From: Dysgonamonadaceae bacterium
Lineage (GTDB): Bacteria; Bacteroidota; Bacteroidia; Bacteroidales; Dysgonomonadaceae
Reading direction: 5' to 3'
DNA: 42,683 nucleotides
NCBI GenBank assembly: GCA_028696875.1
Contig: JAQVGF010000003.1
Coordinates: forward strand, 1-42,683
Shown: positions 36,243-39,996 of the stretch, piece after piece
How the letters are laid out: every line of letters starts with the position of its first letter
Numbering within the stretch: position 1 is the stretch's first letter
The notes under the pieces: generated by a model
Database searches by the model: none
The model's input: only the letters and a program-made list of their open reading frames with translations
What the model was told of the DNA's origin: nothing
Translations under genes and position numbers: made by a program

Positions 36243-38393
36243 ATGAAAAAGAAAATGAATCCGAATCAATCGGAACCAAAACGTAAGAAAAAAGAATTAG
36301 CATCTGAAATTATTCAATTTTTGAACGATAATCAGAATAATCAATATAACTATAAGCAGATATCTGCAGCCTTGAATGTAACAGATGATAATGAAAGACG
36401 TTCCTTATCAGATGTGCTTGACAAGCTACGTGACGATGAATTGGTGCTGGAGACTTCACGAGGAAGATATAAATCAAACAATCGGAACCCTGTTCTTGAA
36501 GGACGATTTGAACGCAGGAGTAGCGGGAAAAACTTTTTTGTGCCCGACGATGATGGTAACATAATATTTATCTCCGAGCGAAATTCAAAGCATGCAATGA
36601 ATACGGATCGAGTGCGAGTGCAATTATTTGCAAAACGCAAACGTTCTGATACTGAAGGCGAGGTCATTGAGATATTAGAAAGAGCCGAAACTCGTTTTAT
36701 TGGAACCCTTGAGGTTCAAAAACAGTTCGCTTTTTTGGTGTTAGATAGTAGAATATTGGCCAACGATATCTTTATTCCGAAGGAACACTTAAAGGGCGGA
36801 AAAACCGGTGATAAAGTGGTTGTAGAAATTACTGAGTGGCCGGAAAAAGCAAATAATCCCATCGGAAAAGTAGTGGATGTATTGGGTGAAGCAGGAGATA
36901 ATGACACGGAAATGCATGCCATTCTTGCTCAACATAATTTACCTTACCGCTATCCGGAGAATGTAGAAAAAGCTGCTGATAAAATTTCGGCGGTTATTAC
37001 CGATGAGGAAATTCAGAAACGCAAAGATTTGCGCAATCTCTTTACGTTGACCATTGACCCAAGTGATGCAAAGGATTTTGATGATGCTTTGTCACTTAAA
37101 AAACTATCGGAAACCACTTGGGAAGTAGGAGTTCACATTGCCGATGTTACACATTATGTGAAACCTGGAGATATAATCGACACTGAAGCGCAGAAAAGAG
37201 CAACTTCTATTTATTTAGTTGACAGAACTATTCCGATGTTGCCCGAAAGATTAAGCAACGAGTTGTGCTCATTGCGTCCGAACGAGGATAAACTCTGTTT
37301 TTCAGTAATTTTTGAGATGAATGAGAAAGGAGACGTTCTAAATCATCGAATTGACAAAACAGTGATCAACTCCGACCTGCGTTTGTCATACGAAGAGGCA
37401 CAAACGCTTATAGAAACAGAGAAAGGTGATTATAGCAACGAAGTAGGAGTCATGAATAAATTGGCAATTCAATTACGTGAAAAACGCTTTGCCAATGGAG
37501 CCATCAATTTTGAACGTTACGAAGTTCACTTCAATTTGGATGAGAAAGGAAAACCTCTTGGGGTTTATTTTAGTGAGGCAAAAGAGGCCAATCATCTTAT
37601 CGAAGAGTTTATGTTGCTTGCCAACCGTACGGTTGCTGAGGAGATTGGTAAAGTAGGTAAAAACAAAAAAGCAAAAACATTCGTATATCGAATTCACGAT
37701 CTGCCCGATCCGGATAAGTTGGATACGCTCAATACATTTATTACTCGTTTTGGTCATAAAATTAGAACATCGGGCAGTAAAGTGCAGATTGCTAAAAGCA
37801 TAAACTCTTTGTTAGATTCTGTTCAGAATCGCCCGGAAGAAAATTTGGTGGAAACCATTACGATAAAAACAATGGCTAAAGCCGTTTATTCAACCAAAAA
37901 TATTGGTCACTACGGATTGGCATTTGAATACTACTCTCATTTCACATCGCCCATTCGTCGTTATCCCGATATGATGGTTCATCGTTTGCTGAATGACTAT
38001 CTGAATAACGGTAAAAAAAGTGCCGACCAAGAAGAGTACGAAAAACTTTCAAAGCATTGTTCCGATATGGAGTTGGTAGCAGTTCAAGCTGAGCGCGATT
38101 CCATAAAATATAAGCAAGTAGAATTTATGTCCGATAAAATCGGGCGAGTTTACGATGGCGTAATTTCCGGAATTACAGAATGGGGAATTTATGTTGAAAT
38201 AAATGAAAACAAGTGCGAGGGTATGATCCCTATCCGTGAATTAGACGATGACTTTTATGAACTTGACGAAAAAAATTATCGATTGATAGGCAGACGAACC
38301 AAGCGTGAATACCGTTTGGGACAAACGTTACCAATTACAGTGGTTCGTGCAAATTTAGAGAGGAAACAATTGGATTTTGGATTGGCGAAATAG
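36243..38393 (+). CDS. rnr: Ribonuclease R
   Basis: TIDPSDAKDFDDALSL, GVHIADVTHYVKPGDIIDTEAQKRATSIYLVDRTIPMLPERLSNELCSLRP, C-terminal S1 domain. Confidence 0.97.
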   Translation: MKKKMNPNQSEPKRKKKELASEIIQFLNDNQNNQYNYKQISAALNVTDDNERRSLSDVLDKLRDDELVLETSRGRYKSNNRNPVLEGRFERRSSGKNFFVPDDDGNIIFISERNSKHAMNTDRVRVQLFAKRKRSDTEGEVIEILERAETRFIGTLEVQKQFAFLVLDSRILANDIFIPKEHLKGGKTGDKVVVEITEWPEKANNPIGKVVDVLGEAGDNDTEMHAILAQHNLPYRYPENVEKAADKISAVITDEEIQKRKDLRNLFTLTIDPSDAKDFDDALSLKKLSETTWEVGVHIADVTHYVKPGDIIDTEAQKRATSIYLVDRTIPMLPERLSNELCSLRPNEDKLCFSVIFEMNEKGDVLNHRIDKTVINSDLRLSYEEAQTLIETEKGDYSNEVGVMNKLAIQLREKRFANGAINFERYEVHFNLDEKGKPLGVYFSEAKEANHLIEEFMLLANRTVAEEIGKVGKNKKAKTFVYRIHDLPDPDKLDTLNTFITRFGHKIRTSGSKVQIAKSINSLLDSVQNRPEENLVETITIKTMAKAVYSTKNIGHYGLAFEYYSHFTSPIRRYPDMMVHRLLNDYLNNGKKSADQEEYEKLSKHCSDMELVAVQAERDSIKYKQVEFMSDKIGRVYDGVISGITEWGIYVEINENKCEGMIPIRELDDDFYELDEKNYRLIGRRTKREYRLGQTLPITVVRANLERKQLDFGLAK

Positions 38394-38424
38394 GTAGAGA
38401 GAATTCATGAATTCTCTCTACCTA
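38391..38424. repeat. 34-bp perfect palindrome at the rnr/RAYT convergent ends
   Basis: TAGGTAGAGAGAATTCATGAATTCTCTCTACCTA; contains the rnr stop TAG (38391-38393) and the RAYT stop (38418-38420, reverse strand). Confidence 0.95.
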
Positions 38425-39068
38425 AACGTATCCCCATCCCAATTTTTAGGGTTGTTAATAATATAATTTTTAATACGATGATATGATTCAACGTCACGGA
38501 TAATATGATCGTAGTAATTCGTTTGCCAATTTTTTATACCCGGTGTGTTTCGTTTAATATTTATCTGTTTTGATGTTATCATCTCCAGTTTCCCAACCAT
38601 TTTTGGTATTATCATTTGTCTGCGTTGTTTGCGGTATTGTTTTATTTCGCCGATGGTGGGTTTATAGTTGGGATTGTGCCACCATTGGTGTTTTGATGGT
38701 TGCGGTGGTGTTTGTTGTGACCGCTGTAGAGAAAATTCATGAATTTTCTTTACCTGAATTCTCTCTACATCAATTCCCCCTACATCGGATTCATCCCTAC
38801 CATCATCCGTCAATTCAATTAACAAATGAATATGATTTGGCATCACAACCCATTCATCGATAATTGCACGAATATGGTAATCATTCATTTTTATGATTTC
38901 ATTTTTCACAATTTCGCCATAGTCAGACAATATCATCACCCCATTTTTAATATTTCCCAAAATACATTCTCTATTTTCCACACAAATGGTAATAAAATAG
39001 TGTCCGTTTGCAGAATAATCCCAATACTGCAATCGGTTTGATTCAATCCGATATCTATTGTTGAATTT
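38418..39068 (-). CDS. REP-associated tyrosine transposase (RAYT, IS200/Y1-like); apparent 5' frameshift
   Basis: HUH motif MPNHIHLLIEL, nucleophile region TNYYDHIIRDVESYHRIKNYIINNPKNW. The reading frame extends upstream of the tracked TTG start (39032) as KFNNRYRIESNRLQYWDYSANGHYF, a RAYT-type N-terminus, back to a TAA with no ATG. Confidence 0.85.
   Translation of the reverse strand, partial: KFNNRYRIESNRLQYWDYSANGHYFITICVENRECILGNIKNGVMILSDYGEIVKNEIIKMNDYHIRAIIDEWVVMPNHIHLLIELTDDGRDESDVGGIDVERIQVKKIHEFSLQRSQQTPPQPSKHQWWHNPNYKPTIGEIKQYRKQRRQMIIPKMVGKLEMITSKQINIKRNTPGIKNWQTNYYDHIIRDVESYHRIKNYIINNPKNWDGDTFR
38726..38771. repeat. REP-like palindrome plus degenerate half-copies embedded in the RAYT reading frame
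   Basis: GTAGAGAAAATTCATGAATTTTCTTTAC (38726-38753; one G/T mispair) followed by gaattctctctac (38756-38768); closely matches the core of the 38391-38424 palindrome. Confidence 0.9.
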
Positions 39069-39072
39069 TTAG

Positions 39073-39996
39073 TCATTGTTTGGTTGTTTGCGTTGTCAAA
39101 TAATTCGCCCTCGCCACTTTCGTTTTCTTTCTTGTTGCATTCGCCATAGGAACTTTCCCCAACAACTTAAAAGCCATCTTCAAATACGCTCCCGAATTTG
39201 AAAATCTTCCACCAAACCCTTCAATAAACATCTTCTTTATGGCAGCCAGCACACTGTAAGCTATCGCTTTTGAGAAGCTGTAGTTGATATTTGCCAATTC
39301 GCTCAAGAAATAGACATATTCGGCATAGAGAAATTCTTTGTTAGTTACCTTTCTGTTTTGTCTGTCGTGCGTAGCAAAAGCGTTTGGCAGATATCCAATT
39401 TTGAAGTTATGAAAATGAGTGCGCTGAATGTAGTTTCTGTCTTCTCCATAATGATAGAACAGGGGACTAAATCCGCCAATCTTTTTGACAACTGCAATTG
39501 GGAGCAACCAAAAAGCAGCATTCACAAAGGGTAATTCAACTAAGAGAGGTGATATTTGCACTATTTCATCGAGAGTTTTCTTGTTGGAATAGTTGGCAAA
39601 GCCATGATCGAGTGATGTACCATCCGATGAGAGATGAACCGGGGAAATAATTCCGAATTCTGAATTTGTCTCCGAAGCAATTATAAGTTTTTCCAACATA
39701 TCTTTTTCAATCCAAGTATCCTGATTCAGTAAAAAAATATAATCGAAACCTTTATCTAATGCATACTTAAAGCCGATATTATTGGCTTTTCCAAAGCCAA
39801 GGTTATCCTTGTTTTCAATCAAGATTACTTGTGGGAAGTCTTTTTGTACTCTTTCAACTGTCTTGTCATTAGAATTATTGTCAATAACGAGCACAGTGGA
39901 AGGAATTGTTGAAGCAAATACCGCCGGCAGGCACTTGTCAATCCACGGTTCAAAATTGTAAGAGACAATAATTACACAAACTTTTTTATTCTTCAT
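39073..39996 (-). CDS. Family 2 glycosyltransferase (rhamnosyltransferase-like)
   Basis: VCVIIVSYNFEPWIDKCLPAVFAS, VLVIDNNSNDKTVE, NKDNLGFGKANNIGFKYALDKGFDYIFLLNQDTWI. Likely start MKNKKVCV. Confidence 0.93.
   Translation of the reverse strand: MKNKKVCVIIVSYNFEPWIDKCLPAVFASTIPSTVLVIDNNSNDKTVERVQKDFPQVILIENKDNLGFGKANNIGFKYALDKGFDYIFLLNQDTWIEKDMLEKLIIASETNSEFGIISPVHLSSDGTSLDHGFANYSNKKTLDEIVQISPLLVELPFVNAAFWLLPIAVVKKIGGFSPLFYHYGEDRNYIQRTHFHNFKIGYLPNAFATHDRQNRKVTNKEFLYAEYVYFLSELANINYSFSKAIAYSVLAAIKKMFIEGFGGRFSNSGAYLKMAFKLLGKVPMANATRKKTKVARANYLTTQTTKQ

Follow-up and report, generated by a model that had tools for sequence, protein, structure and literature searches.

A RAYT gene with a REP-type palindrome in frame within its variable loop

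Results

A palindrome inside the RAYT reading frame

The RAYT gene described here contains, in frame and between its HUH motif and its tyrosine, a 28-bp palindrome of the "double foot" REP type. The palindrome differs at three positions from a second copy at the end of the gene, and comparable palindromes occupy the same loop in most of the related genes that we collected. We consider it probable that the element is a gene-resident, REP-type hairpin of a subclass-2.4-like RAYT, likely cognate to the encoded nuclease; on this view a disordered loop accommodates it, it passes down with the gene, and its symmetry is upheld at the level of DNA. Features of the window (the whole stretch of DNA analysed, 42,683 bp) are listed in Table 1.

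Table 1. Features in and around the RAYT gene (window coordinates).
Feature	Position	Strand	Basis or remark
Terminal perfect palindrome, 34 bp, where the RNase R and RAYT genes converge	38391..38424		28-bp core at 38394-38421
RAYT / TnpAREP-like Y1 HUH nuclease gene	38418..39032	minus	ORF, 204 aa from TTG start
Probable catalytic tyrosine Y190 (YIINNP)	38463..38465	minus	Invariant in 40 homologues
Predicted disordered loop, residues 81-110, holding the palindrome-encoded peptide	38703..38792	minus	AlphaFold2 pLDDT <50
In-frame palindrome within the gene, of the "double foot" REP type (GTAG/CTAC tags)	38726..38753		28 bp, 13/14 base pairs intact
Tandem GTAG-tagged left half-units, 15-bp period (5 codons)	38740..38800	minus	Tandem Repeats Finder; half-unit scan
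HUH motif region MPNHIH, residues 64-69	38826..38843	minus	M64, P65, N66, H67 and H69 invariant in 40 homologues

The ORF product matches the Pfam family Y1_Tnp (PF01797) with 25.5 bits (cut-off 23). Against the NCBIfam model REP_Tyr_transpos (NF047646) it scores 60.4 bits (E 1.8e-16), below the cut-off of 80, the ORF being devoid of the N-terminal segment and having a long loop. By sequence as well as by fold, the nearest solved structure is that of E. coli TnpAREP bound to a REP hairpin (PDB 4ER8), which aligns with residues 163-196 and is the top fold match of the predicted model (E 2.4e-06). Like other RAYT/TnpAREP proteins, it has a Y1_Tnp fold that carries an HUH motif together with one probable catalytic tyrosine, and it has the highly variable, repeat-bearing insertion between beta3 and alphaC that characterizes subclass 2.4 of TnpAY1. 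Y190 is most likely the nucleophile, judging from its conservation. The YYDHII motif was considered as the catalytic tyrosine site and dropped, since its tyrosines differ among homologues. The AlphaFold2 model has a mean pLDDT of 81.6 and falls below 50 only at residues 81-110; this segment belongs to a region, between the HUH motif and helix 127-138, that is rich in gaps in the alignment of 40 relatives and contains the palindrome peptide.

The frame of the gene extends upstream to about position 39068 and encodes there a conserved N-terminus, KFNNRYRIESNR, with no start codon in that part (39030-39076, minus strand). An in-frame stop precedes KFNNRYRIESNR, and the closest upstream ATG (39076-39074) is out of frame. 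From the sequence, this copy of the gene may be frameshifted near its start or may use the TTG as initiation codon.

The internal palindrome (GTAGAGAAAATTCATGAATTTTCTTTAC) encodes VKKIHEFSL, residues V94 to L102, together with the first base of codon 103, and is read in frame on the minus strand between the HUH motif (M64-H69) and the invariant Y190. When it is compared to the core of the terminal palindrome (GTAGAGAGAATTCATGAATTCTCTCTAC), the mismatches at palindrome positions 8 and 21 are found to pair with each other, replacing a G-C pair with an A-T pair, while the mismatch at position 25 disrupts its pair with position 4, leaving G.T in one strand and A.C in the other. The feet are GTAG and TTAC, in place of CTAC, in what is otherwise a double-foot REP lying in frame inside a subclass-2.4-like gene; relatives carry perfect GTAG/CTAC feet. 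These findings bear out an earlier sequence-only reading of the same DNA, which had described a REP-like palindrome with three differences from the gene-end copy, two of them compensating, and had placed the encoded peptide in the variable loop between HUH motif and tyrosine. The two copies are the sole matches with up to 3 mismatches in the 42,683 bp, the corresponding figure for dinucleotide shuffles being 0.00. A chance origin is ruled out by these shuffles and by the synonymous recoding of loops described below.

A tandem array of half-units

The degenerate half-units that had been noticed beside the palindrome proved real: they form an in-frame tandem array with a 15-bp period on the upstream side in the gene. 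Units lie at 38740-38753, 38755-38768 and 38770-38783, with a weaker fourth at 38787-38800; the codon blocks over 38740-38783 are VGGID / VERIQ / VKKIH. Comparable duplications occur in relatives (VDKIHVDKIH, HEFYLHEFYL, HALPLPHALPLP). Slippage that kept the frame, or unequal duplication, would be the simplest origin of the array. In another RAYT clade (L049/L168, L096, L108, L060/L177), the loop holds tandem arrays encoding ELHSPDNSN or VSHTPD-like peptides, which, by their sequence, apparently derive from GGGCGAAT-type half-palindromes.

The palindrome family in the source genome

The palindrome at the gene end, which the sequence-only reading had also noted, is slightly longer than had been stated, being perfect over 34 bp; folded as single-stranded DNA it reaches -13.0 kcal/mol (z -6.9). 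A GTAG-tagged palindrome flanks the gene, as in a REPtron, at one end only, and other copies are scattered over the genome. The GTAG foot of the terminal palindrome provides the stop codon of the RAYT gene (38418-38420) and the RNase R stop codon opens the palindrome, so that both convergent genes end on 38391-38424.

In the source assembly (2.35 Mb in 258 contigs, 86% complete), palindromes of the same type occur at C179:1818-1845 and C95:7393-7420, both between convergent 3' ends, and a more diverged copy is found on contig C124; all three are of the internal type. A degraded second RAYT on contig C38 has a palindrome at the equivalent place (C38:6927-6954), followed by remains of a RAYT C-terminus. 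Taken together, these copies indicate that the family is small and dispersed and that the in-frame palindrome of the loop is one of its members. This degraded RAYT (L002, G000:C38, about 1380-1680), which lies downstream of a queC-like ORF, has stops and frameshifts and has kept its internal palindrome.

Palindromes recur in the loops of related RAYT genes

The sequence-only reading had proposed a check on homologues, which we carried out on 95 distinct RAYT-like ORFs obtained from 138 matching genomes of the order and from a further contig scan, flanks being fetched for many of the matches; the scan of contigs from close relatives yielded 13 loci only. The loop does repeatedly encode a palindrome: a strong one is present in 65 of the 95 genes. 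Loops contain 67 palindromes in 25.6 kb, against 8 in the 37.4 kb of remaining sequence of the same ORFs. Under a strict definition (GT[AG]G...C[TC]AC with at least 12 of 14 pairs) there are 38 in 23.8 kb of loops; outside loops, 7 strict double-foot palindromes occur up to 600 bp from the genes, and the remainder of the 1.16 Mb of fetched loci has 21. When the loops are recoded synonymously, the best palindrome score averages 5.2, whereas the median observed is 11; the symmetry thus resides in the DNA rather than in the encoded peptide. Among 61 loop palindromes, frame 0 is used by 50 and the second frame by 10; a single palindrome uses the third frame, in which an intact GTAG would introduce a stop.

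No strong loop palindrome was found in the other 30 of the 95 genes. Within clades, one member has none (L105) and others have decaying ones (L160, L126, L152). Since so many genes do without a strong palindrome and clade members lack it or let it decay, the element is not essential.

Two further loci deserve mention. In L061/L178, a long stretch rich in NG/NV dipeptides in an upstream extension of the ORF lies beside an exact second copy of the palindrome. In L169 (genome G260), the internal and upstream palindromes are identical at the core and have different flanking inverted repeats (48 bp each); the differing extensions suggest, from sequence comparison, nested growth of the palindrome.

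Palindrome types follow the protein tree and their arms change in pairs

On a tree of RAYT proteins built without the loop, in which several deeper forks are poorly supported, palindrome type is mostly clade-specific. The IHEF clade comprises ten genes, including that of the window, with ATTCATGAAT centres (support 100), and the HALS clade eight genes with GGCATGCC-like centres (support 99); further groups have ACGGCCGT or AAAATTTT centres. Because palindrome type follows the protein tree, the palindrome appears to be largely inherited. The second reading frame is found at several separate places in the tree, which suggests several independent acquisitions, each followed by inheritance. The idea that the internal copy records a recent REP insertion is unlikely to hold for the window gene, as all ten genes of the IHEF clade share the palindrome, with neither its location nor its reading frame differing among them.

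Within the IHEF clade, pair 6 is T-A in five genes and G-C in the others (GTAGATAAAATTC...GAATTTTATCTAC versus GTAGAGAAAATTC...GAATTTTCTCTAC), a swap that alters two residues at once (E to D and S to Y). In the THGRA clade (ACGGCCGT), changes on both sides were found in 7 of 14 pairs (11 cells), compared with a mean of 1.6 pairs in shuffles, none of 500 being as high, a figure that leans upward because most of the 28-mers were found through their own palindrome, which favours paired counts. The signal is lost when the partner is slid. The set also includes unscored members located by their peptide (L122 of the THGRA clade, L160 of the window's clade) and the decayed L126 and L152. Judged from these sequences, the arms are changing in matched pairs, even where the protein is altered.

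Copies outside RAYT genes

That the gene carries the REP of its own genome, as the sequence-only reading had it, holds for part of the cases. Pattern searches in 26 and 15 whole genomes, tallied by hand at up to 2 mismatches in incomplete assemblies, revealed at least one extra copy outside RAYT genes in 12 of 28 genome/type combinations (e.g. G000, G076, G260, G035, G039). In the remaining 16 no such copy was found at up to 2 mismatches or with the pattern used, in assemblies that are incomplete (examples are G202, G287, G191, G276, G130, G240, G269, G274, G159 and G033). Continual re-supply from a genomic pool is therefore unlikely to be the general cause of the perfect symmetry. In fetched flanks, matches to the palindrome of the same genome were enriched about 7-fold over those of other genomes (27 matches in 1.14 Mb versus 228 in 69.5 Mb), which is weak evidence because palindrome types are common to several genomes.

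Discussion

We postulate that a GTAG-tagged hairpin entered the disordered, length-variable loop in an ancestor of the RAYT clade and was tolerated by the protein. It would then have been inherited with the gene, its dyad being maintained at the DNA level through matched changes that may each alter two amino acids, while partial, frame-keeping tandem duplication of 14+1-bp half-units would have produced the upstream copies. In single-stranded form, the hairpin probably serves the nuclease of its own gene as a cognate substrate, as the flanking and dispersed copies would, by analogy with the published biochemistry of the E. coli, Stenotrophomonas and Marinomonas enzymes. Upkeep of the symmetry could reflect selection for recognition or template-switch repair of quasipalindromes. 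Counted against this interpretation are the 30 genes with no strong loop palindrome, its lack or decay in members of the same clades and the one broken pair in the window copy.

Purely mutational upkeep would make the palindrome functionless, polymerase template switching perfecting a coding quasipalindrome so that each paired change is a single event. Template switching is described in three reports (PMC8794818, PMC8604942, PMC7202029) as creating and maintaining hairpins and homogenising the arms of inverted repeats in coding sequence, and paired nonsynonymous changes occur here with no donor copy found in the genome. However, such a process leaves unexplained both the near-constant GTAG/CTAC foot and the concentration of palindromes in RAYT loops over the rest of the same ORFs, and we regard it as an unlikely sole cause. 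Somewhat less probable still is recurrent insertion, in which the permissive loop of a RAYT gene is invaded or gene-converted time and again by REPs of its genome, the palindromes being recent records of which only in-frame survivors are seen. Quentin et al. 2018 (PMC6006769) put forward the idea that REPs insert into tnpAREP genes. The presence of several palindrome types and two frames at about one place does imply several separate acquisitions, and in G035, G039, G047, G151 and G260 the internal copy matches outside ones exactly or almost so; but more than half of the genome/type combinations (16/28) yielded no outside copy under the search used, type tracks the core tree, and one frame accounts for 50 of 61 palindromes.

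Di Nocera et al. suggested that REP hairpins may lower RAYT expression (PMC3733652), and a hairpin in the mRNA, or single-stranded DNA bound by TnpAREP, could in this way limit expression of its own gene. As single-stranded DNA the hairpins do have better folds than shuffled sequences, and the right arm can alternatively pair with an upstream left half-unit to give a competing hairpin. Autoregulation seems to us very improbable nonetheless, the hairpin lying in mid-gene, away from the ribosome-binding site, and being absent from many family members. Finally, a functional peptide (VEKIHEFSLQ, VETHGRASLQ and similar) with an incidental palindrome would account for the dominance of frame 0 (50/61), which keeps the V-E...S-L ends, and can hardly be credited, given that frame 1 versions yield unrelated peptides (RDAMHCVST, RDAINRVST), that synonymous recoding destroys the palindrome, that the segment is predicted to be disordered and that centres change and still pair.

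Returning to the inherited, gene-resident hairpin, one may speculate further that in these RAYT clades the internal palindrome is the primary cognate site, selectively kept above flanking and dispersed REPs, and serves as a portable, self-linked substrate that could re-seed the genomic REP family; we offer this as a tentative and rather doubtful extension. Since a single gene ties the type of palindrome to the clade of the protein, each sequence is a candidate enzyme-substrate pair, useful for the study of RAYT-REP coevolution. The paired nonsynonymous changes, in turn, provide a clean case for weighing selection against template switching in keeping palindromes of coding DNA perfect.

Palindromes in coding sequence are found in several other settings. 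Rickettsia palindromic elements (RPE) are translated in frame and spread across many host genes, with no tie to RAYTs. The present palindromes resemble RPE in their in-frame translation and differ in that the host is the RAYT gene. RPE inside ORFs are cited by Di Nocera et al. 2013 (PMC3733652), who described GTAG REPs in frame within other genes, such as uvrA, recB and dnaE2; GTAG palindromes in frame in coding sequence are common to both situations, but those host genes are unrelated, whereas here the host is the gene of the REP nuclease itself. Nematomorpha mitochondrial genes hold perfect inverted repeats within protein-coding sequence (PMC6649704); these are likewise kept in coding sequence, but are far longer, belong to another kind of genome and come without a nuclease.

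E. coli TnpAREP with its REP hairpin (4ER8), the best match in fold and sequence, acts on a GTAG-footed hairpin, like the probable substrate here. According to PMC8266576, single-stranded REPs that carry a GTAG motif are processed by their cognate TnpAREP proteins, and the stem of E. coli REPs is bulged, with the GTAG ahead of the hairpin. In contrast, the type of palindrome reported here has a perfect dyad of which the GTAG foot forms part, and its place is the long loop insertion of the gene.

The closest known system is that of Quentin et al. 2018 (PMC6006769). Subclass 2.4 TnpAREP proteins are abundant in Cyanobacteria and Bacteroidetes, their REPs end in GT[AG]G and C[TC]AC, and REPs inside tnpAREP genes preserve the frame; most of these occupy a peripheral extension that separates HuH from Y. 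HUH/Y core, variable insertion, occurrence in Bacteroidetes, GT[AG]G...C[TC]AC ends and in-gene, in-frame "double foot" REPs are all shared, and there is no difference in kind. Since in-frame REPs within tnpAREP had already been published, the window case is a member of a described kind. In the literature searched, the supplement of Quentin et al. aside, we found no report of inheritance, paired changes or sole-copy state. The basic phenomenon is that published in 2018; in the genes examined here the palindrome is frequent, is transmitted along with its gene and in many cases is the sole copy found in the genome. To the published picture we add the clade-wise inheritance, the paired nonsynonymous changes, the frequent sole-copy state and the 15-bp half-unit array.
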